From a virus, in the IMG/VR virus record IMGVR_UViG_3300032293_001888, positions 1 to 50,988 of that record: 50,988 nt of DNA; one strand, 5' to 3'. A program made the translations under genes and the position numbers. The notes beneath the pieces were generated by a model. It saw nothing but the letters and a program-made list of their open reading frames with translations, had not been told where the DNA came from and searched no databases. The stretch's first letter is position 1. Each line of letters starts with the position of its first letter. Of the stretch, positions 29,726 through 42,458 are shown piece by piece.

Positions 29726-30118
29726 TTATCTATTTCTCTCTAAAAGGATTGTAACCGTTGTAGGTAATGTTGCATTTTCAATATAAAATGTGATTGTAAC
29801 ATCATATGCGTTTTGGTCTGGTTTGGCCAACACGGTAATTTCTTTCAACAACGCTCTTGGTTCATAGTTGTTAATCACGTTCTCAACTTCACTTTGTAGT
29901 GAAGCTGAAGTATTATCCGAAATAGGTTCAAATAATAAAGCGTTAATGTTTGATCCTATCTCTGGATTAAAAGGTCTTTCAAAGTTATTTGTTAATAACA
30001 AGTTACGAACAGACCTAATTACCGCCATTTCATCAAAACTTAATGCGATATCATTGGTTACCGGCTTTCTGGTGAAAGTGAAGTCAATGTCAGAGTATAG
30101 TTTCTTTATGGTTGCCAT
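29726..30118 (-). CDS. 25: Baseplate wedge subunit gp25 (130 aa)
   Basis: GPW/gp25 family. MATIKKLYSDIDFTF aligns with T4 MANINKLYSDIDPEM. The segment RPFNPEIGSNINALLFEPI matches RPFDPEFGCDLSDQLFENM, and NNYEPR matches the invariant EPR motif. Length (130) matches T4 (132). The protein sits at the core of the wedge with gp6 and nucleates sheath assembly. It is the first gene of the gp25-gp6-gp7 run and is preceded by the 99-nt gap holding copy B of the 61-bp element. Confidence 0.95.
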   Translation of the reverse strand: MATIKKLYSDIDFTFTRKPVTNDIALSFDEMAVIRSVRNLLLTNNFERPFNPEIGSNINALLFEPISDNTSASLQSEVENVINNYEPRALLKEITVLAKPDQNAYDVTITFYIENATLPTTVTILLERNR

Positions 30119-30136
30119 TGTTTATTTATTCTGCTC

Positions 30137-30197
30137 TGGAAGTAAATTCGCTTTTTAGCATCTTGAAATGCGCCTAAAAAATTCTTGGGCTGGAATC
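30137..30197 (-). repeat. 61-bp intergenic element, copy B
   Basis: Aligns ungapped to copy A (10462-10522). Copy B contains a longer inverted repeat (TTTTTAGCAT against ATGCgcCTAAAAA on the plus strand) that would form an A/U-rich hairpin. It lies 19 nt upstream of the gp25 start and just after the stop of the 267-aa gene. Confidence 0.6.
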
Positions 30198-30217
30198 AAA
30201 AAATTCGAATTTTGAAA

Positions 30218-31021
30218 TTATGAGTTAATTCTTTCTTTTATCTTGTTGGTACCAACAAAGTTATTGACCAGATAAGTTTCGGTTTCACCCATATTACTGA
30301 ATTTCTTGACGGAATTGTATTTGTCTACAAAACTACGCAAATTAGTATAATAGGTTACATCAGCATTTTGTCTGGTTATCAAAAGTGTGTTGGTATTTGA
30401 AATATCCGAAAGAATCTGTGTTATCTGTGCTTCTGTTAAATTGTTAGCCGTCACACCGTTTGTCAAAGTTACAAGATTGTTGGCCAAAGTGACATTTGCT
30501 GAATCTACTTGAGGACCAACCAAAATACTAGTAAAACTACCCAAAATAGGTGAGGTATTGGTTATATTGTCAGTTTGATTGGTAATATACAAAGCGGTCT
30601 TACCTAATCCCATGGCTGTGTCGTAATATGGGTTCTCAACTTCTTGGCCAACAAAGGGTGTTACTCCCGATATTCTGTTAGTGTGTGCTAAAAATGAAGT
30701 TGCAACATTCGCAAGTGTATTTGCAGCCGTAACAATTAAATCACAATTTGCAATGTTTTGACTGGCACCAGTATTTGCCACAGTTATCATGGTTTGTGAA
30801 ATTGTAATGATTGAATTGGTATTAGAAGCCACAGGATTCTGATAATATCCACCAACTGCGTTATTTGCAATATCTTGTGCCTGCCACGTATCAATAAACG
30901 CCGGCATAGAGTTTAAATGTGCAACTGTATTTGCAGAAAGATTTAATACATCACCATTAGGGTCACTAAAATTATAACCTAATGTTGCATATACTCCTGT
31001 TGCATTATTAACTGATGCCAT
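30218..31021 (-). CDS. Virion-type protein of unknown function (267 aa)
   Basis: It starts MASVNNATGVYATLGYNF. The protein is rich in Asn, Thr and Ala, largely helical-looking (LIVTAANTLANVATSFLAHT), and ends FVGTNKIKERINS. It contains an HTNRISG and a VENPYYDTAMG motif that I have no family for. It lies between the gp5-type needle gene (3 nt gap) and gp25, so a hub or wedge-associated structural role is likely. No signal peptide or membrane segment is seen. Confidence 0.65.
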   Translation of the reverse strand: MASVNNATGVYATLGYNFSDPNGDVLNLSANTVAHLNSMPAFIDTWQAQDIANNAVGGYYQNPVASNTNSIITISQTMITVANTGASQNIANCDLIVTAANTLANVATSFLAHTNRISGVTPFVGQEVENPYYDTAMGLGKTALYITNQTDNITNTSPILGSFTSILVGPQVDSANVTLANNLVTLTNGVTANNLTEAQITQILSDISNTNTLLITRQNADVTYYTNLRSFVDKYNSVKKFSNMGETETYLVNNFVGTNKIKERINS

Positions 31022-31024
31022 TAT

Positions 31025-31798
31025 CTAAACTCCAAAGAAAGGTGTCAAAGGAGGACTTGTAGGTCCTTTTGGTGAATTATGTATATGTGTGTTATAGATG
31101 CCTTTGTTAATAACATCTGACATTAGAACTGCATCTAGAATACCAGTTCTTACCAACGGTGCTGTAACTGAAATTAAAGAGATTATTGGTCCTTGTGAAT
31201 ACACACCTTGTAGTCCTGCATAAACACCTGTACCAGCATTGATTCTTGATTCGGCCGTAATTAAGTCAGCCGAAGCTGAACCAGCAACCACCAAATCAGA
31301 ATCTATGTATACATGGTCAGCCGCAGCCATACGAATCGCACCACCAAAATTTTCATTTGCGGTGATTGACATATCACCATCGCTGGACAATGAGATATCT
31401 CCCACAACTCTAGTGTTCATTTTACCACCAACTAGAAGGTTGTAATCACCAGCCACTTGTACATTGTGGTCACCTTTAACTTCCATATTGGCATCACCCT
31501 CAATGGTAATATTACAAGTGCCTTTGATAAGAACATTCTTACCTTTTAAATAAATTTCATAACCAGTACCATATACCTTATGCACCTCATCGCCATCAGG
31601 ATGCATTTCCAAGAAAGTACCTATGCGGTGCTGCAACCGAACTCGTTCTCTCGTTGGAGTGTCGTCCATCTCAAAGGAGTGACCCGATTCTGTCTGTTGT
31701 ATGTTATTATACGGATAAACTGGTGGAGTTTCGGTATTTCTAGCCGATTCCGGTTCGGTCCAAGAATTGTCTGAAGGTGATGGTGGTAATATTGCCAT
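31025..31798 (-). CDS. 5: gp5 C-terminal beta-helix (cell-puncturing needle) as a separate protein (257 aa)
   Basis: Residues about 28-130 match the C-terminal part of T4 gp5: YNNIQQTESGHSFEMDDTP (T4 METESGHIQEFDDTPGQER), then RERVRLQHRIGTFLEMHPDG and the repeating VKGDHNVQVAGDYNLLVGG of the triple-stranded beta-helix. The C-terminus YNTHIHNSPKGPTSPP is the HxH metal-binding tip type of phage spikes. The OB-fold and lysozyme domains are absent; the OB-fold is encoded separately at 32630-32923. It acts at the tip of the tail tube to pierce the outer membrane. Confidence 0.88.
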   Translation of the reverse strand: MAILPPSPSDNSWTEPESARNTETPPVYPYNNIQQTESGHSFEMDDTPTRERVRLQHRIGTFLEMHPDGDEVHKVYGTGYEIYLKGKNVLIKGTCNITIEGDANMEVKGDHNVQVAGDYNLLVGGKMNTRVVGDISLSSDGDMSITANENFGGAIRMAAADHVYIDSDLVVAGSASADLITAESRINAGTGVYAGLQGVYSQGPIISLISVTAPLVRTGILDAVLMSDVINKGIYNTHIHNSPKGPTSPPLTPFFGV

Positions 31799-31800
31799 AA

Positions 31801-32622
31801 TTAAGGTGTGTTTTTATTTTGTGGAGATGGTGTTGCAGGTGTTTCATACGCTGCGATGGTTGCATTGGCCGCATCCAATTCTGCCTGACTGGTTGGTATT
31901 AAAAGTCCTGCTGTGCCAGCAACTGCAATATTAACTGTACCCGCTGCAACAGCAACCGTTGCTTTTACTGTATTGGAGGCCGATTCGGCTAAGGCTTTTG
32001 CTTCTTTAATAATGTCGTCATAATTACTAGGTCCTTCCGAAAAACCTTCTGAAAGACCAGCACCAATATCAGAAAAAACAGAACCAATTAATTTAATTAG
32101 TCTTGCCAAACAATCTTGCAATAAAGCCAAAAATTTTGCAGGTAAACTTAAAATCCAAGCAATAATATTTCTTAATTTGGCGATATAAGCAACAACATAC
32201 TTTTGAAAATCTAAAATTGGTTGTAAAATTTCTTTATTAATACGATTAACTTCTCTAGCAATGGCTTTTAATGTGGTTGCTAACCAAGAAGCTTCACCTG
32301 TTTTATCAGAAATGCCTAATAATCTTAAAACTTCTCGTATTGCATCTCTGATTTGTTTAGCTACGGCTTTTGCATATTTTTTAAATTCAATATTTTTTTG
32401 TATATCGGTAACAAAATCACACACATGAGCCAAGTTATCATTAGCAAAACCAACACTAGTATTGGCAACAATACTTCTTGCACCAGCAGGAACATCAGGA
32501 TTACCTGGTGTTGGTCCATCATTTGTTTGAGTAACTTGTGGTGCCGGTGATTCAACCGCAACACCACCAACAAAAGTTACACTAACACTAGACGGAGGAG
32601 ATTGTATATTTTCTTCTGCCAT
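31801..32622 (-). CDS. Unknown protein between the split gp5 genes (273 aa)
   Basis: It starts MAEENIQSPPSSVSVTFVGG, followed by a low-complexity Pro/Gly stretch. Residues about 75-200 are a run of amphipathic to hydrophobic helices (AVAKQIRDAIREVLRLLG; IIAWILSLPAKFLALLQD; IGAGLSEGFSEG), and the C-terminus is Ala-rich with ATPSPQNKNTP. It lies exactly where the T4 gp5 lysozyme domain would be in gene order, but I see no lysozyme motif. It could be a hub plug, a chaperone for the needle or a membrane-active tail protein. Gaps to neighbours are 2 and 7 nt. Confidence 0.65.
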   Translation of the reverse strand: MAEENIQSPPSSVSVTFVGGVAVESPAPQVTQTNDGPTPGNPDVPAGARSIVANTSVGFANDNLAHVCDFVTDIQKNIEFKKYAKAVAKQIRDAIREVLRLLGISDKTGEASWLATTLKAIAREVNRINKEILQPILDFQKYVVAYIAKLRNIIAWILSLPAKFLALLQDCLARLIKLIGSVFSDIGAGLSEGFSEGPSNYDDIIKEAKALAESASNTVKATVAVAAGTVNIAVAGTAGLLIPTSQAELDAANATIAAYETPATPSPQNKNTP

Positions 32623-32629
32623 TTATATC

Positions 32630-32923
32630 CTATTTTGCTAAACCAGGTAAAACACCCATCATAACTGGTGCTTGTGCTGAGTCGCCATCTAAAAAAAATC
32701 CTACAACCCAATCGCCCAACCTTGGAGCCGAAAAAGATTTTGAATTGTTGATTGGATACATGGGTTGAGCCCAAGGCAATACTTCCGTAGGCAAATCTGA
32801 AATATTATCAGTATGCCAGCCATATATTCTCAATTGACATCTTCCCATACCTAAAGGATCTACTCGGTTTTCAACTACACCAATAAACCAAATAAAACCA
32901 TTTTTTCCAATAAAATTTTCCAT
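32630..32923 (-). CDS. 5: gp5 N-terminal OB-fold as a separate protein (97 aa)
   Basis: WFIGVVENRVDPLGMGRCQL aligns with T4 gp5 WFVGVVEDRMDPLKLGRVRV. TEVLPWAQPMYPI matches TEKLPWMSVIQPI, and RLGDWVVGFFLDGD matches the VYGHFLDK strand. The protein stops after GVLPGLAK, at the end of the OB-fold, with no lysozyme or beta-helix. It would cap the gp27 hub ring. Its ATG overlaps the gp27-like stop by one base (TAATG), as expected for coupled hub subunits. Confidence 0.9.
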   Translation of the reverse strand: MENFIGKNGFIWFIGVVENRVDPLGMGRCQLRIYGWHTDNISDLPTEVLPWAQPMYPINNSKSFSAPRLGDWVVGFFLDGDSAQAPVMMGVLPGLAK

Positions 32924-34317
32924 TATTTTTTAATCACTTTTTGTAACTTCGCATCACTATTATTAATTGCACTATATTTTCTAGAAGAACTATCTTTTGC
33001 AATCTCAACGACAGTTTGATATACTGTTGGTTGAATAATATGCCTTACAGCAGTTACCAAATATTTACCAGAATAAAATTTATCCAAACCTTTTGAACTT
33101 GTAGTTGGACTTAAAGTAAATAATTTCACATCAATTGTTCTTCCAACACTTATACCTGGATCACCAGGTATTGTCATTTTTATTACGGTATAATTTGCCA
33201 AAGAAATTTGTGCAGTTCTATTTGGAACATATGTTTCGATTGCAATATTTTTTGCAACCGCACCAGGCACTTGTTTTATATATGCAGCATTGGACTGCAC
33301 AGCATTTCCTGTAAAAACTTTAAAATTTGAATCTGGTGATCTGGATTGTGTGAGTCCCAATCGATTTCTCATTTCATTTGAAACATCTTCTGCATTTAAA
33401 CTTGCCGACTCATCATCTTCATAATTGTATATTGTGGTATTTGCTTTTTTTGCCAATGTATCTATAGAGATTAATTTATTTGCAAATGTGCCTTGATTTA
33501 TCTCATTCAACATATCAAAGGTTTTAACAAATTCATAATTTAATATGGTATTCATCTTTTCTTTAAATGACTGTTCATTGTCACCAAGATTTTTTAATTG
33601 GTATTTGTAAGTTCCATATATTGGTTGTTTATACATCGACTGTAATGATCTAAAATTAAATCCATCTTTATTTTGAAAAAATAACATGTCAGCTATTTTA
33701 TCTTTTTGGTTAAAGCTTGCTGGTCTGGCATAACTTGACAACCAGCTGATTGCTTCAAATGGTTTTAATCTAGGAATAATAAAATCATATACTCCTGTGG
33801 TTTCTTCTATTGTTGCAATTTTTTTACTATCGACAAATAGACCACCATTAGAGTTACTTAAAACACCTCTGATTATGTCGGATATTTTTGTGCCCACAAC
33901 CGATTTACTTATTTTGGTCTGTTCTGATAACATCAATTCTTCTGAACAGAAATACATTTTATAACTTTCTGTGTTCATATTACCAGAAGGTTTTCTATTC
34001 TCAATTTTATAAACTCTCACGGTTTGTTTGATATTATTAGGCGCACCTTTTATTTTACCAAAATTTAATTCTAAAAATTGATTACCTGTTTCTTGTAACA
34101 ATTCGATAAATCCTTGACCGTCTTGTACAGTAAGATATCCAGAAATGGAAAAACTGTAAATGTCCTCATAATAACACAATTCAACCAACAATTTTCTCAA
34201 ATCAAATGCTTGGCCATTGGCCGTTAAAAAATTGATTGTATCAAGTGAATAATCTTGAGTATAAAATACTCCAGGATTTTCTGTAAGAGTTGAATTAGGT
34301 TGTTCAATTTCTGCCAT
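32923..34317 (-). CDS. 27: Baseplate hub subunit, gp27-like (464 aa)
   Basis: Located directly upstream of the gp5 OB-fold gene. It has hub-type segments: LRKLLVELCYYEDIYSFSIS, LQETGNQFLELNFGKI, VGTKISDIIRGVL, RLKPFEAISWLSSYARP, DMLFFQNKDGFNFRSL and near the end YSGKYLVTAVRHIIQ. This order (two tube-like domains, then the AISWL...R(P/A)...FFQ(N/T)...GFxFxS core) matches T4 gp27/gpD-type hub proteins. It is somewhat longer than T4 gp27 (391 aa). The trimeric hub carries the gp5 spike and connects to the tail tube. Confidence 0.85.
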   Translation of the reverse strand: MAEIEQPNSTLTENPGVFYTQDYSLDTINFLTANGQAFDLRKLLVELCYYEDIYSFSISGYLTVQDGQGFIELLQETGNQFLELNFGKIKGAPNNIKQTVRVYKIENRKPSGNMNTESYKMYFCSEELMLSEQTKISKSVVGTKISDIIRGVLSNSNGGLFVDSKKIATIEETTGVYDFIIPRLKPFEAISWLSSYARPASFNQKDKIADMLFFQNKDGFNFRSLQSMYKQPIYGTYKYQLKNLGDNEQSFKEKMNTILNYEFVKTFDMLNEINQGTFANKLISIDTLAKKANTTIYNYEDDESASLNAEDVSNEMRNRLGLTQSRSPDSNFKVFTGNAVQSNAAYIKQVPGAVAKNIAIETYVPNRTAQISLANYTVIKMTIPGDPGISVGRTIDVKLFTLSPTTSSKGLDKFYSGKYLVTAVRHIIQPTVYQTVVEIAKDSSSRKYSAINNSDAKLQKVIKK

Positions 34318-34320
34318 AAA

Positions 34321-34914
34321 TTATACCATTAATTCTTGAAATTGTGCTTCCAATTGATCCACATAATTTGCATTTAATATCTTTATCGTTCTTTTAGATT
34401 CATTTAAACGCACCTCATAATCATAATAAGTTACTATTGATTTAGTAATGGTAATTGTTACATTACCTGTGACTAATTGATATGTGGTTACACTAGGATT
34501 TAAAGTATTATAGGTGCTTTCATCTATAATAATATTGTTAACCGTTGTTGTTTGTGTAGTTGCATCATATTGAGTAATAGTTTTTTCATATTGATATGCT
34601 GTATTGTATGGATTAAAAGTTTGATATTTGTTAGTAATATAAGAATCAAACGAATTTGAATTGAGTGGCCAATCCCATTGTGGATCAGTTATTTGATTTG
34701 CAAATAAAACAATCCAATATCGATAGGAGTTGCCATAATATTTGTATGCGACAATCTCTGGAGTATCTCCGTCTTGTATATCATAATCATAGTACAATAA
34801 TGGGTTCTTTAAAATTTCAGGAATAATAGAACATCTTGCCATTAAATCTGTCATTAACACCGACACACCATTGGTTGTCTTAATTATTTTAGGTAAAGAA
34901 TCAAAATATTGCAT
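34321..34914 (-). CDS. 53: Baseplate wedge subunit gp53 (197 aa)
   Basis: MQYFDSLPKIIKTTNG, then VSVLMTDLMARCSI, YYDYDIQDGDTPEIVAYKYY and YRYWIVLFANQITDPQWDWP are hallmarks of T4 gp53, whose N-terminal half resembles LysM. Length is essentially that of T4 gp53 (196 aa). It ends YVDQLEAQFQELMV. gp53 bridges neighbouring wedges in the inner baseplate. It lies 3 nt upstream of the gp27-like gene and 1 nt downstream of the gp48/54-like gene. Confidence 0.92.
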   Translation of the reverse strand: MQYFDSLPKIIKTTNGVSVLMTDLMARCSIIPEILKNPLLYYDYDIQDGDTPEIVAYKYYGNSYRYWIVLFANQITDPQWDWPLNSNSFDSYITNKYQTFNPYNTAYQYEKTITQYDATTQTTTVNNIIIDESTYNTLNPSVTTYQLVTGNVTITITKSIVTYYDYEVRLNESKRTIKILNANYVDQLEAQFQELMV

Positions 34915-34915
34915 T

Positions 34916-35905
34916 TTAATATCCTTGTTCGACTTTTTGCTTTGTAATCAGTTCGAGTTCTCTGAATTCAATCGTCAATGTTGTCTGTACTGGTGCACCA
35001 TCGGTGTGTGCAGAAAATCCTTGTGGTGCATAATCCACATTGATGTTTGTAATAACACTTTCGGTTACTTGACTAATGTTTTTGTTGACTCGTCCATTAA
35101 ATCTAAAAGTTGGTGTGAATGTCGCTGGCGGTACAAAAAACATACCACCACCTGATCCTTCGACAAGTCTTGGAGCAGCATGAGTTTTGAACATCTTTAT
35201 GATAGCAGCAACAGTTTCGGCCTCTTGTTTTGAATATGGAGTAAAAGTGAAAGCCAATTGATATGTTCTAAAATCGATACCATCAAACAAAACTTGCTGA
35301 TTTGGATTAAGTGCATATCCAGATCCTTTTAATAAAAGTCGAGCTGCAGGATTGTTTAATGCTTGAGTTACGGCTGAAACAACACGACCTACACCTAACG
35401 GAAGACTACTTGCAGCCGTTAATAAATCTGTTTGGCCATAACTAGCTGCATAAGTAAAATTTAGCGTGTCAGGCATATACAAAGAAATGGATTTGGTGCT
35501 TGTTTTTGTACGATTACTAAGGACCAAATTTAATTCTTTTGTGTAACTACCATCTTCAAGTTTTCCAAATGTACTTTTAAGAGCATCTGCACCTAAATCA
35601 AATACCTCTTGAGCTCCGCCACTTTCATAGGCTTCTTTTGTTTTTTCTGCTGCTTTTTGTATACCATCACCTGTTTTACCAACAGTTTCTATGACTTGAT
35701 TTTTAAGCTCCACATATTTTATAGGATTAATCTCGTTAATCGCAAAATTAACCACATGACCTCTGGTGGCCGATTGCAAATCTCTTGGATATTGTAAATC
35801 TTGTCGACCAAATGGATTTTTATATAGTGAGCCCAATGGTCCGTTTGTGACAATTCCTGGTATAGATACACCACCGATAGATGTTGGGATGGTAATGAGA
35901 GCCAT
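34916..35905 (-). CDS. Baseplate tail-tube cap, gp48/gp54-like (329 aa)
   Basis: The N-terminal part (LYKNPFGRQDLQYPRDLQS; HVVNFAINEIN) and C-terminal tube-like domain (FRTYQLAFTFTPYSKQEAE; IIKMFKTHAAPR; TFRFNGRVNKNISQV; VDYAPQGFSAHTDGAPVQT; LTIEFREL) match the T4-like tube cap/initiator family. The tube-fold ending GxPVxTxLxLxFxEL is characteristic. Length is between T4 gp54 (320) and gp48 (364), so I do not choose between them. It is the first minus-strand gene after the strand switch; CATAAATA lies 33 nt upstream and a weak AGAGA Shine-Dalgarno is present. Confidence 0.83.
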   Translation of the reverse strand: MALITIPTSIGGVSIPGIVTNGPLGSLYKNPFGRQDLQYPRDLQSATRGHVVNFAINEINPIKYVELKNQVIETVGKTGDGIQKAAEKTKEAYESGGAQEVFDLGADALKSTFGKLEDGSYTKELNLVLSNRTKTSTKSISLYMPDTLNFTYAASYGQTDLLTAASSLPLGVGRVVSAVTQALNNPAARLLLKGSGYALNPNQQVLFDGIDFRTYQLAFTFTPYSKQEAETVAAIIKMFKTHAAPRLVEGSGGGMFFVPPATFTPTFRFNGRVNKNISQVTESVITNINVDYAPQGFSAHTDGAPVQTTLTIEFRELELITKQKVEQGY

Positions 35906-35942
35906 TTAAAATCTCTTTTAATGTGTTGAATATATATTATTT
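35906..35942. promoter_or_regulatory. Divergent intergenic region with a late-type element
   Basis: This 37-nt gap separates leftward wedge/hub genes from rightward gp4. The minus strand carries CATAAATA at 35938-35945 (one mismatch to the late octamer, overlapping the gp4 start). The plus strand is A/T only around the gp4 start (AATATATATTATTT), so a rightward promoter is not clear. Confidence 0.5.
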
Positions 35943-36377
35943 ATGGCTTATTCCGGACGATTTACACCTCGAAATCCTCAAAAATACATTGGGGATTATA
36001 AAAATATCATTTACCGCTCTTCGTGGGAGTGCAAAATGATGGATTGGCTCGATAGAAATCCTAATATTATCTCTTGGGCTTCTGAAGAATTAATCATTCC
36101 TTACATCTCTCCTGTAGATGGCCGTTGGCACCGATACTTTCCTGACTTTCTTGTAAAGATGAGAGCTAAAGATGGTAAGTTAAAAACCATGTTACTTGAA
36201 GTAAAACCAAAGAAACAATCTCAGGCACCAGAACCACAGAAAAGAATTACTAAACGATATATCAATGAGGTTGCAACTTACGGAATAAATCAATCCAAAT
36301 GGAAAGCCGCAACAGAATACTGTCTAGACCGTGGTTGGGAGTTTCAAGTAATCACGGAAGACCACTTGGGACTGTAA
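35943..36377 (+). CDS. 4: Head completion nuclease gp4 (144 aa)
   Basis: MAYSGRFTPRNPQKYIGD aligns with T4 gp4 MAYSGKWVPKNISKYRGD. YRSSWECKMMDWLDRNP matches YRSNWEKFFFEWLDKNP, and YINEVATYGINQSKWKAA matches FMNEIYTYSVNTDKWKAA. A PD-(D/E)xK nuclease core is visible: E29, D68 (FPDF) and E86-x-K88 (LEVKPKK). In T4 gp4 (gp50) is needed to complete DNA-filled heads before tail joining, probably by trimming DNA ends. It is the first gene of the rightward operon. Confidence 0.95.
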   Translation: MAYSGRFTPRNPQKYIGDYKNIIYRSSWECKMMDWLDRNPNIISWASEELIIPYISPVDGRWHRYFPDFLVKMRAKDGKLKTMLLEVKPKKQSQAPEPQKRITKRYINEVATYGINQSKWKAATEYCLDRGWEFQVITEDHLGL

Positions 36378-36389
36378 CTAAATAATCTA

Positions 36390-36983
36390 ATGGCATATAC
36401 ATCTAAACTCACGACCTTAGCGAAACAAAAAACGGCAGCGCAATTACAAACTGCCAGTCGTGATTCGTATCGTTGGTTAATGAAGAAGATTAGTGAATTA
36501 AACAATCCAACAAGCATCGCTTCGGTGATTGCTCGTGAAGATAGAGGCAACCGATTCATCAATGGTGGATTATACTATTTTTATTATGATCCAAAAGGCA
36601 AGGCTGATCTACCATACTATGATCGTTTTCCTTTGGTATTGGTATTAGAGATATACAAAGATGGTTTTTTAGGTCTGAACCTGCATTATTTGCCAATCCG
36701 TCAACGAATTGGTCTTTTGGATAACTTGATGGAATACGCTGACCTAGACAAGAACAAAGACATTCTGCGTATGCGTGTCACCTATGATATATTAAACGCC
36801 TCCAAGCGGTTTAAAGAGTTCAAACCGTGTCTTAAAAAGTATTTGTTCGGCCATGTCCAGTCAAAGATACTTGCCGTTCAGCCAAATGAGTGGGATATAG
36901 CGGCATTTTTGCCAATTCAGCAATTCAGAAAAGCTACCACATCAGAAGTGTGGCAAGATTCACTAGAAGAAATAAGGAAATAA
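36390..36983 (+). CDS. Conserved T4-like virion/assembly protein (197 aa)
   Basis: It begins MAYTSKLTTLAKQKTAAQLQ. Core motifs are GGLYYFYYDPKGK, LPYYDRFPLVLVLEIYKDGF, GLNLHYLPIRQRIGLLDNL, FKPCLKKYLFGHVQSKIL and NEWDIAAFLPIQQFRKAT. This pattern is common in T4-like aquatic phages, but I cannot link it securely to a named T4 gene. In T4 the neighbour of gene 4 is gene 2 (DNA-end protector), so that is a candidate by position only. It starts 12 nt after gp4 and ends 1 nt before the next gene. Confidence 0.75.
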   Translation: MAYTSKLTTLAKQKTAAQLQTASRDSYRWLMKKISELNNPTSIASVIAREDRGNRFINGGLYYFYYDPKGKADLPYYDRFPLVLVLEIYKDGFLGLNLHYLPIRQRIGLLDNLMEYADLDKNKDILRMRVTYDILNASKRFKEFKPCLKKYLFGHVQSKILAVQPNEWDIAAFLPIQQFRKATTSEVWQDSLEEIRK

Positions 36984-36984
36984 A

Positions 36985-37725
36985 ATGGCAGGTTCCATTA
37001 ACGACTTCAAGGCAAGTTTTCAAAAAGATTTGGCCAGACCAAATAAATTTGATGTGAATATTCCTGTGCCTTTGACTTTAATACCTTATGTTAAAAATGC
37101 AAAAAATTTAGTTTATCGTTGTGAAAATGCCAATTTACCTGGTAGAAATTTTGCAACTCTAGAACAAAAAATAGGATCAAATCCTGTTGAAAAGTATCCA
37201 TACTTGACAACATATAATGATTTAGATTTAACTTTTATAGTTGATGATGACATGAATCAAAAAGTGTTTTTTGATGCGTGGTTAAACTTTATCAATCCAA
37301 CATATAATTACAACTTTAGATATAAAGGTGATTATTCAACCGCAATCACAATTAATCAATATGATGTTACAAATCAAATTTCATATTCTATTAATTTGTA
37401 TGACGCTTATCCTGTTTCTATGAATCAGATGGACTTGGATTGGTCGGCAGATGGTTATCATAAGTTGAATGTTACTTTTGCATACACATACTACCAGAAT
37501 AATTCGTTACAGGCTTATGGTATGCAATTGATTGATGCGGGACTTGGATTCTTTGCGGATTCCATTGGTGGTTTGGGTGGTAATGCCATCGGTGGTTTAG
37601 GTCAAGCAGCTAATGCTTTACCAAATGCTTTAGGTGGTGCTGTACCATTCAAAGATCCAGATCAACCTTTTAGTGCTTCTGGTGCTCGATCTTTTAACGA
37701 AATCACAGACGAATTTGATAGATAA
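36985..37725 (+). CDS. Tail-tube-fold structural protein, gp19/gp54-like (246 aa)
   Basis: It starts MAGSINDFKASFQKDLARPN. RPNKFDVNIPVPL, YRCENANLPGRNFATLEQ, YPYLTTYNDLDLTFIVDDD, FFDAWLNFINPTYNYNF and VSMNQMDLDWSADGYHKLNV are the strand order of the tail-tube fold. A C-terminal extension from about residue 180 is Gly/Ala-rich (IGGLGGNAIGGLGQAANAL) and hydrophobic, ending FNEITDEFDR. It could be a second tube initiator, complementing the gp48/54-like protein on the other strand, or a tube-like hub ring. AATGGAGTG follows its stop as the Shine-Dalgarno of gp26. Confidence 0.75.
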   Translation: MAGSINDFKASFQKDLARPNKFDVNIPVPLTLIPYVKNAKNLVYRCENANLPGRNFATLEQKIGSNPVEKYPYLTTYNDLDLTFIVDDDMNQKVFFDAWLNFINPTYNYNFRYKGDYSTAITINQYDVTNQISYSINLYDAYPVSMNQMDLDWSADGYHKLNVTFAYTYYQNNSLQAYGMQLIDAGLGFFADSIGGLGGNAIGGLGQAANALPNALGGAVPFKDPDQPFSASGARSFNEITDEFDR

Positions 37726-37748
37726 TTTTTTAATGGAGTGAAAATAAA

Positions 37749-38474
37749 ATGGCTTTACCAAAACTTGATGTGCCAACATATGAAATTGTTTTACCTGTTT
37801 CTAAAACAAAAATAAAATTTAGACCGTTTCTAGTTAAAGAACAAAGAAACTTATTGATGGCGATTGAATCAAATGAATCGGCAACAATACAACAGAATGT
37901 AAAAGACATTCTTTATAACTGTACCTTGACAGAAGGTATTGATATTGAGAAATTGCCTATCATTGATGTAGAATTTTACTTCATCAATCTTCGTGCCAAA
38001 TCAGTAGGTGAGATTGTTGAATCGAAATATAAATGCAACAATATGGTCGGCGACAAAGAATGTGGTAATGTTATGGAGACTGAAGTTGATTTGCAAAATA
38101 TTGTTGTGCAGACGAATGATTCTGTTTCTCCAGAGATTCAACTGACACCACAGATTACAATTAAGTTAAAGTATCCAGAATTTGGCATCGTGCAAGATTC
38201 ATTAAAGTATGATTCTATTGCAGAAACCACATTCAATATGATTTCTGAAAGTATCGAATACATTTATGATGGTGAACAATTCTATTATGGTACAGAAGCT
38301 GAACCAGGTGAAATGTTGGAGTTTGTAGAAGGTATGAACCAAGAACAATTTTCAAAGGTCGAAAACTTTTTTAATAATTTACCAAAACTGAAAAAAGAAA
38401 TTGAAATTGATTGTAGTAAATGTGGTTATCATCATAAAATTGAAGTAGAAGGACTTGAAAGTTTTTTCGGTTAA
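37749..38474 (+). CDS. 26: Baseplate hub assembly protein gp26-like (241 aa, zero-frame product)
   Basis: T4_baseplate (gp26) family: KIKFRPFLVKEQRNLLMAIE, LTEGIDIEKLPIIDVEFYFI and LRAKSVGEIVESKYKC are diagnostic. Four cysteines in two pairs (C96/C105 and C222/C225 in DCSKCGYHH) look like a zinc ribbon. The protein is a tail-assembly chaperone/hub assembly factor. The last codons read AGT TTT TTC GGT TAA, so a T TTT TTC slippery heptamer lies just before the stop. In the -1 frame translation could continue for 62 residues (separate entry). Confidence 0.88.
   Translation: MALPKLDVPTYEIVLPVSKTKIKFRPFLVKEQRNLLMAIESNESATIQQNVKDILYNCTLTEGIDIEKLPIIDVEFYFINLRAKSVGEIVESKYKCNNMVGDKECGNVMETEVDLQNIVVQTNDSVSPEIQLTPQITIKLKYPEFGIVQDSLKYDSIAETTFNMISESIEYIYDGEQFYYGTEAEPGEMLEFVEGMNQEQFSKVENFFNNLPKLKKEIEIDCSKCGYHHKIEVEGLESFFG
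38462..38468 (+). promoter_or_regulatory. Candidate -1 ribosomal frameshift site (U UUU UUC)
   Basis: Heptamer T TTT TTC in the zero frame of gp26 fits X XXY YYZ, a canonical -1 slippery sequence. It is two codons before the gp26 stop (GGT TAA). After slippage the next codon is CGG at 38468-38470 and the frame stays open to 38656. Confidence 0.65.
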
Positions 38475-38656
38475 TATTTCGTCATGACAATTTAAAGAAT
38501 TACTATAAGACTAACTTTTCTTTGATGCAGCACCATAAGTATAGTCTATCTGAACTTGAGAATATGATGCCTTGGGAAAGGGATATTTACGTTTCCATGT
38601 TGATTGCGTATATTGAAGAAGAAAATGCTAAAATACGGGAAAGACAAAAAAAATAG
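38468..38656 (+). CDS. -1 frame extension of gp26 / small tail-assembly ORF (62 aa as extension, 43 aa from its own ATG)
   Basis: From CGG at 38468 the frame encodes RLIFRHDNLKNYYKTNF, then SLMQHHKYSLSELENMMPW and ERDIYVSMLIAYIEEENAK, ending RERQKK and TAG at 38654-38656. An internal ATG at 38525 gives a 43-aa product, but the open frame begins upstream of it exactly at the slippery site and the residues before that ATG look protein-like. The pattern (helical, SELExMMPWERDIYVxxL) resembles the C-terminal part of phage tail-assembly chaperones made by frameshift (lambda G-T type). Neighbouring genes abut it: the next ATG is at 38660. Confidence 0.7.
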   Translation, partial: RLIFRHDNLKNYYKTNFSLMQHHKYSLSELENMMPWERDIYVSMLIAYIEEENAKIRERQKK

Positions 38657-38659
38657 TAA

Positions 38660-40132
38660 ATGGATTATCAACAGGCCGCAGATACTCGCAAAAAGGGTTT
38701 ATTCTCCGCAATCACAGATAAATTGGTTGCTGGTCAAGGCATTGGTTCGTCTGTTGGTGGAGCCATATCCGAAAAAACTCAAGCAACAGTCAAAGGATTC
38801 AAAGAAAAGTTTGACATACTCAACATAGCTAAGACACTAACAGGTGGCAGTAATTTAGCTCCTGCATTATTGGGTAGAATGATGGGTAGAAAAAAAGAAG
38901 ATATTGCTTATTTTGCCGGTGCCAAGAATAAGAAGATTGGTGGCCTCAGTTCCACAAAAACAAATGAGATGGCAGTTGAAGTTCTTGGTTTGATATATCG
39001 TGAGATGGTAAGAACCGAAGAACAAAGAAAAATAGATTTTGCTGATGTTGAAGCAGAAAAGAATAAAGAATTAGAAGCGGAAGATACCAGAAACAAACAG
39101 ATTATTGCAGCATTAACTGGTAGAAAAAGACCAACCAAAAAGGTTAAGGTCGAAAAAAAGAAAAAAGAAACAAAAGAGAAAAAACCAAAGGCGGGAGCTC
39201 CTGCCATTTCAATTGGTAAAAAAGGTGTCGAAACAATTTCAAAATTGTCTCCTTTTAAAACTATACAGAAAGCAATAACAACAGTTGTCACACCATCAAG
39301 AGTTGCTGGTGGTGCTATTTTAGGTGCTGCTGGTATTTCGGCAGCAGCAGCAATATCGATTAAAGGTGAAACAGGTAAGACTGCTACATCAAAACAAGAT
39401 ATTTTAGATAAAGCAGGCCAAGTTGTACAGAATGATCCTAAACCCGGAGTTACATCATATGGAATTTTTGGTATGAATTCTGGATCAGGAACAGTTCAAC
39501 AATTTCTTGCTGAAAATCCACAATTTGGAATAACAGCAAAGCCTGCTACACCAGAGTTTGACAAACAATGGAAAGAAGTTGCCAAACAAAAAGGTCCAGA
39601 ATTTTTGGATGCTCAGTTAATGTGGCACGATAAACACATAGTACAACCATTAAGAAAAGAATTAACAAACAAACTGCCACGAGGTGTGCAACCAAACGAA
39701 CAAGTATTGGCTTATATGGCTGATAGAAGAATTCAGTATGGAAGAGTACAAGAACAATCAGCACTACAATATGCTTCTGGTGCAAAAACACCAGCAGAGT
39801 GGATTGAAAAAATGACCGAGTATGATTTATCAAATCTTGGTACTGCTTTTTCTACTTATTTGAAAGAACATCCAGAGGCAAAAAAAGGTTTAATTAATCG
39901 CCTTGAAATGAGAAAAAGCATGGCACTTTCTGTTTCTCCCGATAACAACACAGGTAATCAAATAGAACAATCTTCAAAAGTTAATAAAGATGCCAAAGCT
40001 CAAGCCGATGCTTCAGCTATGCAACAAAAAAATGTAAATACCACTAATGTATCTTCTTCAAATCAATATGCTGAAAATGCAGAAAAGGAAGATGATAGAA
40101 GTGCATATGATAAAAAGGTTAAACAACGATGA
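38660..40132 (+). CDS. Hub/tape-measure-type protein with lysozyme-like domain (490 aa)
   Basis: Residues 1-115 (MDYQQAADTRKKGLFSAI; ISEKTQATVKGFKEKFD; LAPALLGRMMGRKKEDIAYF) are paralogous to the start of the next gene. Residues 155-178 form a Lys-rich linker, and 214-234 an Ala/Gly-rich hydrophobic stretch (VAGGAILGAAGISAAAA). From about 236 to 425 is a region matching murein-hydrolase domains found in VgrG/tail spike proteins: GETG at 236-239 (E237 candidate acid), SYGIFGMNSGSGTVQQFL at 266-283, FDKQWKEVAKQKGPEFLDAQ at 300-319 and DRRIQYGR. The C-terminus is Gln/Asn-rich. I infer tail-borne peptidoglycan degradation during entry. Confidence 0.72.
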   Translation: MDYQQAADTRKKGLFSAITDKLVAGQGIGSSVGGAISEKTQATVKGFKEKFDILNIAKTLTGGSNLAPALLGRMMGRKKEDIAYFAGAKNKKIGGLSSTKTNEMAVEVLGLIYREMVRTEEQRKIDFADVEAEKNKELEAEDTRNKQIIAALTGRKRPTKKVKVEKKKKETKEKKPKAGAPAISIGKKGVETISKLSPFKTIQKAITTVVTPSRVAGGAILGAAGISAAAAISIKGETGKTATSKQDILDKAGQVVQNDPKPGVTSYGIFGMNSGSGTVQQFLAENPQFGITAKPATPEFDKQWKEVAKQKGPEFLDAQLMWHDKHIVQPLRKELTNKLPRGVQPNEQVLAYMADRRIQYGRVQEQSALQYASGAKTPAEWIEKMTEYDLSNLGTAFSTYLKEHPEAKKGLINRLEMRKSMALSVSPDNNTGNQIEQSSKVNKDAKAQADASAMQQKNVNTTNVSSSNQYAENAEKEDDRSAYDKKVKQR

Positions 40133-41502
40133 ATAATATGTCATATCAAGATGCCGCAAGAACGAGAAAGAAATCGTTCATATCAATGATTACCGAAAAA
40201 TTGGTTGAAGGTAATAGTATTGGTTCATCGATAAAAGCCACCGTTTCTGAAAAATCTGCCGCCCGAGCAAAAGGATTTAAAGAAAAAATAGATCCAATGA
40301 ACATCATTAAGTTTATGACTGGTGGATCTAAATTTGCCGCAGCTTTATATGGTAGTGCTAGAGGTAGAAGTAAAGAAGATATGAAATACTTTACCGGTAC
40401 TCCAAGGTCAGCAAAAGAAGTAGGTGCATCATCAACTCGAATCGATTCATTAGAAACTGGTAATGAAATGGTATCTTTATTGATGAAAATTTATGAGTTT
40501 ATGCGTACCACAAATGAAGAAGATAAAACGAGGAAACAAAAAGAAGCCAATTTCAAAGAAGAAATAGAATATGAAAGAGGATTAAGACACAAAGCTTTAT
40601 TAGAAGCCTTGTCTGGTTTAAAACCAGGTAAAACGGTTACTGCAACTAAAGAAACTGATGATGGAGGCTTTGGTGGTATTTTCGCAGGATTAATTTCTTT
40701 TGTTAAAGGATTAATCTCCGATGCATTAAAAGGTGTAATGGCTATACTTAATGGCATTACAGAATTAATAGAAAAATCTTTAATTAAAATGTTGGGCCAA
40801 AAATTAATTTGGAGCATGATTATTAGAAGTGTTCCTCAAATTGCAATGTTGTGGGGAATATATGAATCGAAAAAATATTTAGATAAAATTCTTTATGCTG
40901 AAAGAATGAAAGATGAGGAAGGTAAATCTGCACAGAAAGCCTTTAAAGGAATACAAACCGATTTTAGTAAATCAAAACTCACTCAAGACGAAGCAAAAGC
41001 AATATTGGAACAAGATCCTGGTATTAGAAAAGACAGAGATATAGCATCTTTTGGTGGAATTGAAAGAGTTCAAGCAATAGCTGATGGAAAACCGGACCCA
41101 GGAGGTATAATTCCTAAGTCTAATGAAGAAATTAAACGAAAATTGAAGTTGGATGAAGAAATAAGAAAACTGAAATCAACTCCAATACCTACTTCACAAG
41201 CCGAAGCACAAGATTTGGAGAATGGTGCCAGTCAGCAACCTATGCCAGCACCTATGGTACCTGTAAATCAACAACCAGTGCCAGCGCCTATGGTACCTGC
41301 AAGTAATGTTTTGAATGAAAAAACAAAAGAAATGAATGATGTCAATTTACCTACACCAGCACCAGTTATGACATCTCAAACAACCAATACTACAAATGTT
41401 ATGGCAGATAAAAAAATTGCACCGACAGGTCCTTTACCTTCTGTAAGAAATCAAGAACCTACTTTTGCCAATATGATATTATACAGCACAAGAGTTGTGT
41501 AA
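40129..41502 (+). CDS. Paralogous hub/tape-measure-type protein with hydrophobic segment (457 aa)
   Basis: ATGA overlap with the preceding stop supports a start at 40129, but MSYQDAARTRKKSFISMI from 40138 aligns better with the paralogue. The first about 115 residues (GNSIGSSIKATVSEKSAARA; KFAAALYGSARGRSKEDMKY) mirror the previous protein. Residues about 185-265 are strongly hydrophobic (IFAGLISFVKGLISDALKGV; LIWSMIIRSVPQIAMLWGIY), as in tape-measure proteins that insert into the host membrane. A Pro-rich duplication (PMPAPMVPVNQQPVPAPMVP) follows, then a tail ending ANMILYSTRVV. Probably a tape measure or hub component; no catalytic domain is seen. Confidence 0.7.
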   Translation: MNNMSYQDAARTRKKSFISMITEKLVEGNSIGSSIKATVSEKSAARAKGFKEKIDPMNIIKFMTGGSKFAAALYGSARGRSKEDMKYFTGTPRSAKEVGASSTRIDSLETGNEMVSLLMKIYEFMRTTNEEDKTRKQKEANFKEEIEYERGLRHKALLEALSGLKPGKTVTATKETDDGGFGGIFAGLISFVKGLISDALKGVMAILNGITELIEKSLIKMLGQKLIWSMIIRSVPQIAMLWGIYESKKYLDKILYAERMKDEEGKSAQKAFKGIQTDFSKSKLTQDEAKAILEQDPGIRKDRDIASFGGIERVQAIADGKPDPGGIIPKSNEEIKRKLKLDEEIRKLKSTPIPTSQAEAQDLENGASQQPMPAPMVPVNQQPVPAPMVPASNVLNEKTKEMNDVNLPTPAPVMTSQTTNTTNVMADKKIAPTGPLPSVRNQEPTFANMILYSTRVV

Positions 41503-41558
41503 TAACCAATAAAAAACCACACCGTATCTTTCGACAGAGGGTGTGGCCGTGTTATTAC
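41499..41558. terminator. Bidirectional hairpin terminator between convergent operons
   Basis: CCACACC (41517-41523) pairs with GGTGTGG (41540-41546), and an outer pair GTAATAAC (41499-41506) with GTTATTAC (41551-41558) extends it. Leftward of the core, on the minus strand, the stem is followed by TTTTTT (rc of 41511-41516). It is therefore a good intrinsic terminator for gp32 and a weaker one for the plus-strand operon. Confidence 0.75.
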
Positions 41559-41570
41559 TATTTAAAAGAA

Positions 41571-42458
41571 TTAATCTTCTTCAGCTAACTTGGCAAAATA
41601 TGCCATGTCATCTTCATCTTCACCAAGACTAGGTTCAGCGCCGACTGCCTTCTTAGGCGCAGCAAACTCTTTTGCCTTTACTTGTTCTACGGTTGTGCGT
41701 GGTGCTTCACCATTCAAACCAAGAACCTTATCAAGGCGTTGCTTCAGAGCATCATACGACTTGAACTCTTTATCAGCAACTAACTCTTGTAGTGAGAAAG
41801 AATCTTTCCAGATTTGTTCTAACTTGCCATCATCATCAGATAATACAGATGGTGATTCGAATTCAGACTTATCATAGTTCTGATAGCCTTCAACCTTACG
41901 AATCTTCAACTTAAAGTTAGCACCCTTCCACATATCAAATGGATTGATTGCTTCTTCATCAGCGAACTGTGGGTTCATTGCTTCAGAAATCTTATCGAAA
42001 ATCTTCTTGCCGAACTTAAACAATTTAATCTTGCCTTCGTTCTCAGGATGTTTAGGATCAGATACGATATAAACATTGGCGATGTAATTCAATTTACGCT
42101 TTTGCTTACGAACTACATCTTTGTTGGCTTCGATGCCAGAATTCCATAGTGTAGAATTGTGTTCACATACTGGACATTGTTGGTTCTTTGAGGTCAAACA
42201 GTTATCGATTAACCAACCACCAGGTCCTTGAAAACCGTGGGAGAAAATCTTGACCCATGGTAGACCATCGTCACCATCTTTTTCAGATGCTGGCAAGAAA
42301 CGGATTGTTGCCATACCATTGCCTGATTTGTCTACTTCGGGACGCCAGAAATTATCTGACTTTTCTGAACCACCTTCTGAGGATGTATTGAGTGCCTCGA
42401 TGGCCTTTGATAACTTATCCAGATTACCGGATTGTCTTTTTAGATTTGCAAAACTCAT
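41571..42458 (-). CDS. 32: Single-stranded DNA-binding protein gp32 (295 aa)
   Basis: Diagnostic parts: N-terminal basic region FANLKRQSGNLDKLS (cooperativity LAST-like motif), MATIRFLPASEK, and the zinc site H74, C87, C95, C98 in FSHGF...DNCLTSKNQQCPVC. These match the H-C-C-C ligands of T4 gp32. KLNYIANVYIVSDPKHPENE and GKKIFDKISEAM follow. The C-terminus is acidic (LGEDEDDMAYFAKLAEED), as required for partner binding. Length matches T4 gp32 (301). It coats ssDNA in replication and recombination and works with gp59 (43210-43815). Two sigma70-type promoters lie upstream, and AAAGG precedes the ATG. Confidence 0.95.
   Translation of the reverse strand: MSFANLKRQSGNLDKLSKAIEALNTSSEGGSEKSDNFWRPEVDKSGNGMATIRFLPASEKDGDDGLPWVKIFSHGFQGPGGWLIDNCLTSKNQQCPVCEHNSTLWNSGIEANKDVVRKQKRKLNYIANVYIVSDPKHPENEGKIKLFKFGKKIFDKISEAMNPQFADEEAINPFDMWKGANFKLKIRKVEGYQNYDKSEFESPSVLSDDDGKLEQIWKDSFSLQELVADKEFKSYDALKQRLDKVLGLNGEAPRTTVEQVKAKEFAAPKKAVGAEPSLGEDEDDMAYFAKLAEED

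Follow-up and report, generated by a model that had tools for sequence, protein, structure and literature searches.

The window (the whole stretch of DNA analysed, 50,988 nt of IMG/VR record IMGVR_UViG_3300032293_001888) comes from an uncultured T4-like phage and carries, directly downstream of a tail tube gene (phrog_45), a gene for gp26. Its open reading frame starts with the ATG at 37749 and its 3' end reads AGT TTT TTC GGT TAA, with a single sense codon (GGT) between the heptamer T TTT TTC and the stop at 38472-38474. The initial annotation had placed this heptamer at 38462-38468, in the zero frame and near the end of gp26, and both its coordinates and its phase (X XXY YYZ) are correct. 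It had also described a -1 frame that stays open into the space before the next gene, which the sequence confirms: there is no stop from 38459 to the TAG at 38654-38656, 62 residues are added after the Phe-Phe, and the ATG of the next gene follows at 38660. The features of the locus, where TAC denotes tail assembly chaperone, are as follows.

36985-37725, + strand: tail tube protein (gp19-like), directly 5' of gp26; phrog_45 6.7e-39, PF23849 and PF06841
37735-37738, + strand: GGAG, probable ribosome-binding site of gp26, as read from the sequence
37749-38474, + strand: gp26, putative short TAC form (TAC-N), 241 aa; PF12322 1.7e-57, phrog_150 2.8e-63; model pLDDT 93.7, predicted TAC fold at residues 1-96
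38447-38453, + strand: AGAAGGA, SD-like, 8 nt 5' of the heptamer, possible upstream stimulator
38459-38656, + strand: -1 frame ORF, putative TAC-C, corresponding to the C-terminal domain of T4 gp51; 62 residues post-shift, ending at TAG; phrog_634 2.7e-29, alignment to the T4-type gp51 C-terminus, dN/dS 0.06
38462-38468, + strand: slippery heptamer T TTT TTC, in frame; T TTT TT[C/T/G] in 254 of 266 distinct relatives
38472-38474, + strand: TAA, zero-frame stop of gp26
38480-38487, + strand: CGTCATGA, invariant in 30 aligned members of the window's clade
38660-40132, + strand: 490-aa protein with a VgrG3-like/lysozyme-like C-terminal part (PF21277 2.7e-9), in the tape-measure position, which suggests its function
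40129-41502, + strand: 457-aa protein, paralogous to the 490-aa protein in its N-terminal ~175 aa (46% identity over 175 aa, 2e-31)

The match of gp26 to PF12322 is full length (195 bits, cut-off 24.5). The two ORFs in the tape-measure position have no match to any tape-measure family. A search of NCBIfam found nothing. At the DNA level, window positions 30000-42000 have no near match among 50,697 GenBank phages, the closest sequences being uncultured IMG/VR contigs.

Conservation of the slippery heptamer

In the AT-rich window, bare TTTTTTC occurs at chance frequency (24 found, 25.8 expected) and is thus not over-represented, as would suit a reading in which the heptamer is a chance run of Ts and the extension a decayed or accidental frame. 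When the reading frame is taken into account, the 36 ORFs of 120 aa or longer (45 kb) contain a single T TTT TT[T/C], the one in gp26. We assessed conservation across 353 gp26 loci outside the T4 type, drawn from IMG/VR and GenBank phages, of which 266 are distinct. In 254 of the 266, an in-frame T TTT TT[C/T/G] occupies the corresponding position and the -1 frame is open; heptamer, frame relation and extension, which the initial annotation had tied together in a single frameshift, are indeed conserved jointly in relatives. The last base of the heptamer is C at 189 of these loci, T at 64 and G at one, and the gp26 stop follows after 0-3 codons in 231 and after 8 codons in 23. NNT-TTT is invariant across 36 gp26 clusters (45% identity threshold), for which the chance is ~1e-16 given each gene's codon usage, a figure that assumes independent lineages and was computed on heptamer-bearing loci. 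One search pattern demanded the residues DFF, but it was back-translated degenerately and so introduced no bias to TTT over TTC. Conservation of the heptamer in relatives is far beyond chance.

A T run of this kind could also change frame during transcription, with RNA polymerase rather than the ribosome slipping and with identical protein products. The run is all T, and it contains at least seven Ts at 64 of the 254 loci; against this, 189 of the 254 have exactly TTTTTTC, and six Ts is short for polymerase slippage. The run moreover holds one phase (T TTT TTN) and is followed in many lineages by a stem 5-8 nt away, both of which are typical of ribosomal shifting, and we regard slippage by the polymerase as very unlikely.

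Cyanophage records list gp51 as a separate gene of ~57 codons that directly follows gp26; an ATG is often found a few bases downstream of the end of gp26. The heptamer is present at these loci too, which meets the objection that relatives might keep the extension as a separate gene with no slippery site.

Among the 12 loci without the heptamer, 11 belong to one clade (Ackermannviridae together with Vibrio K362) and the remaining one is a truncated gene. In the Ackermannviridae (GAR ATT TTC ATY TAA) and in Vibrio K362 (CTT TTC AAG TAA), the extension is in the -1 frame with no tandem heptamer. Between the gp26 stop and the first start, the ratio of synonymous to nonsynonymous changes in the Ackermannviridae is 183:48 for the -1 frame but 57:161 and 24:194 for the other two frames; this synonymous excess implies that the segment is coding and is entered from upstream. 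An ATG overlaps the gp26 stop at three loci of the Ackermannviridae type (L214-L216). This clade is the least explained point of the analysis. It is possible, if rather doubtful, that this branch uses an unusual single-codon slip at TTTTC or some other recoding, and that CGTCATGA in the window's clade is a new kind of stimulator.

Several individual loci deserve mention. The heptamer-less Ackermannviridae and Vibrio K362 loci with the extension are L087, L199-L216 and L223, which have ATT TTC or CTT TTC before the stop. In S-SCSM1 (L220, 1481-1668) the heptamer is intact and the extension is in the +1 frame, perhaps through a sequencing error, or else through a real frame change. The HTVC008M-like locus L178 (1501-1989) was rejected as an exception: its gp26 stops early relative to near-identical relatives, probably through an assembly error, and the slip site is not reached.

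Coding in the -1 frame and candidate stimulators

The extension matches phrog_634 (PHROG 634), 'baseplate hub assembly catalyst', which is T4 gp51 (E = 2.7e-29, to the C-terminal part), and the description of it as protein-like in the initial annotation holds. Pfam matches of the extension to MobI and TumE (0.002 and 0.03) are below their cut-offs and were set aside as chance. In the window's clade, codons 3-17 past the gp26 stop have a dN/dS of 0.058 in the -1 frame versus 1.28 and 1.18 in the other frames. This selection pattern refutes a decayed or accidental extension: purifying selection in the -1 frame is strong, and there are in addition the family match and the conservation across very different phage groups, leaving that reading with a negligible probability.

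The -1 frame of the window contains no ATG, GTG or TTG upstream of the TTG at 38522, which sits 17 codons into conserved sequence (dN/dS 0.06). Selection ahead of any start argues, in the window, against production of gp51 as a separate small protein through translational coupling, with ribosomes re-initiating at the gp26 stop or beyond it, and for the window's clade we reject re-initiation as a general mechanism on the strength of these 17 conserved codons with no preceding start. Of the 254 loci, 136 have their first -1-frame start codon more than 30 nt past the gp26 stop. An ATG lies within -5 to +10 nt of that stop in 86 (about a third), which, like the annotation of gp51 as its own gene in most cyanophage records, is in favor of re-initiation, and separate synthesis of gp51 may occur at such loci. 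However, the heptamer is retained at the ATG-bearing loci as well, the gp26 stop is 8 codons past the slip site in 23 loci, and T4-type gp51 includes a gp26-like domain. As an explanation, re-initiation seems to us quite unlikely.

Within the 51 distinct genes of the window's clade, synonymous variation along gp26 has its minimum at the heptamer (O/E 0.23, rank 1 of 237), where the Ser-Phe-Phe codons show no synonymous variation at all. In the P-SSM2 group the heptamer stands out less (rank 5 of 235 and 21 of 234).

We also looked for elements that might stimulate a shift. In a set of 86 representatives, the 6-bp stem with the strongest covariation pairs positions 8-13 with 58-63 after the heptamer and so begins at a spacing of 7 nt, with an excess of 0.51 that is uncorrected for kinship, the largest excess in 30 column shuffles being 0.30. 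A compact hairpin with much the same spacing occurs in the cyanophage P-SSM2 (z -3.5). For the window and its clade, folding gave nothing convincing as a 3' stem-loop (z about +1), and Rfam returned no match. Just past the gp26 stop, the partly palindromic CGTCATGA does not vary among the 30 clade members that were aligned, not even at synonymous Arg and His positions. Upstream of the heptamer, the GAA of codon 234, within AGAAGGA, is free of synonymous changes across the window's clade; the Gly codon of this motif is also kept for the protein. From its sequence, AGAAGGA is a possible upstream stimulator.

Two predicted forms of a tail assembly chaperone

AlphaFold2 gave confident models of gp26 (pLDDT 93.7) and of T4-type gp51 (93.3). 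A Foldseek search of the PDB produced no match below E 0.001 for either model; among the matches of gp26, the HK97 TAC (2ob9) had the top probability, 0.51. With a second structural aligner, residues 1-96 of gp26 matched 3fgx (RBSTP2171; Z 7.8), 3klu (YqbN; 7.3) and 2ob9 (HK97 TAC, gp13; 7.1), which we take to be the structures used in defining the TAC fold, followed by 5ir0 (a phage-like element; 5.8), with all others at or below 2.7. As Z scores below 8 are middling, these matches support a TAC fold in the gp26 model rather than prove it. A sequence-profile search of the PDB gave chance matches only, with no gp26 chain among them.

Taken with the conservation and selection described above, these observations are best accounted for by a -1 frameshift that yields gp26 and a longer gp26-gp51C fusion, as in the lambda G/GT type of TAC, a reading that the initial annotation had already put forward and to which we assign a probability of roughly 0.93. 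Points that weigh against it are the failure to find a convincing 3' stem-loop in the window's clade, the exception clade with its -1 extension but no tandem heptamer, and the +1 position of the extension in S-SCSM1. That slippage takes place, how often it does so and what each form does are inferred, as follows. Most ribosomes would end at the TAA at 38472 and release gp26 as the short form of the TAC, while a minority would shift by -1 at T TTT TTC, where the Phe-tRNAs would leave TTT-TTC and pair with TTT-TTT instead, and would read on to the TAG at 38656 to make the gp26-gp51C fusion as the long form. If lambda G/GT is a guide, coating of the tape-measure protein would fall to the short form and recruitment of tail-tube subunits to the C-terminal domain of the long form, and both forms would depart before completion of the tail.

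Relation to T4 genes 26 and 51 and to other chaperones

In T4, gp26 and gp51 are classed as hub assembly chaperones, and gp51 is required yet is not in the particle (PMC3004832). In the T4-type set that we compared (RB69, Aes508 and twelve IMG/VR loci), gp26 (~208 aa) and gp51 (~250 aa) are encoded by separate neighbouring genes, which are on opposite strands in RB69 and Aes508. Both proteins of these two phages match PF12322 essentially over its full length, and the extension is carried by T4-type gp51 only and is absent from T4-type gp26. In an unguided alignment, the -1 extension of the other phages falls on the C-terminus of gp51 from the Phe-Phe junction onward. At the equivalent spot, T4-type gp26 has TTC TTT, which is not slippery, in most members. 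The proteins are therefore homologous, with gp51 the in-frame counterpart of the predicted fusion, but the T4-type genes are separate and have no slippery heptamer, so that no frameshift is needed. As judged from these alignments, the one frameshifted gene predicted in other T4-like phages corresponds to the two paralogues of the T4 type. Earlier, Sullivan et al. 2010 described cyanophage gp51 as being without its first ~200 residues and Aeh1 as being without gp51 (PMC3037559). We find a gp51-like extension in the -1 frame in Aeromonas phage Ah1.

Two other phages provide points of comparison. The slippery site of P2 E/E', T TTT TTG, is likewise a T run in a contractile-tail phage, and exactly this heptamer is found in RHph_I1_9, a member of the gp26 family; to our knowledge, the P2 proteins are unrelated in sequence to gp26 and gp51. 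Lambda, in contrast, is a siphophage whose gpG/gpGT slippery sequence, G GGA AAG, is a different one and whose proteins have no detectable sequence similarity to those described here.

A proposal for the TAC genes of T4-like phages is reported to have been made by Vladimirov, Gautam and Davidson in 2022 (Virology 566:9-15). Reportedly, that study found frameshifting to be conserved in several T4-like groups, with T4 using genes 26 and 51. PMC12846349 credits Vladimirov et al. 2022 with the statement that TAC-N genes in T4-like phages have polyT slippery sites, and the PRFect paper (PMC10885494) says of the same work that some T4-like phages have short and long TAC genes and no frameshifting. 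The gene family and the short and long forms (gp26, gp51) are the same in our case; the difference is that the window's phage is uncultured and has no near relative among GenBank phages. A TAC frameshift in T4-like phages was thus already proposed in 2022, and the novelty here is modest.

The likeness to lambda is that of a short chaperone and a longer -1 frameshift fusion acting in tail assembly, and a 2016 review described the G-T frameshift as conserved in long-tailed phages 'except T4' (PMC5009743). On the reading proposed here, the T4 type would be the exception, carrying as two genes what is elsewhere one recoded gene. The many records with separate gp26 and gp51 entries could then be corrected, and work on tail chaperones would become transferable between the lambda and T4 models.
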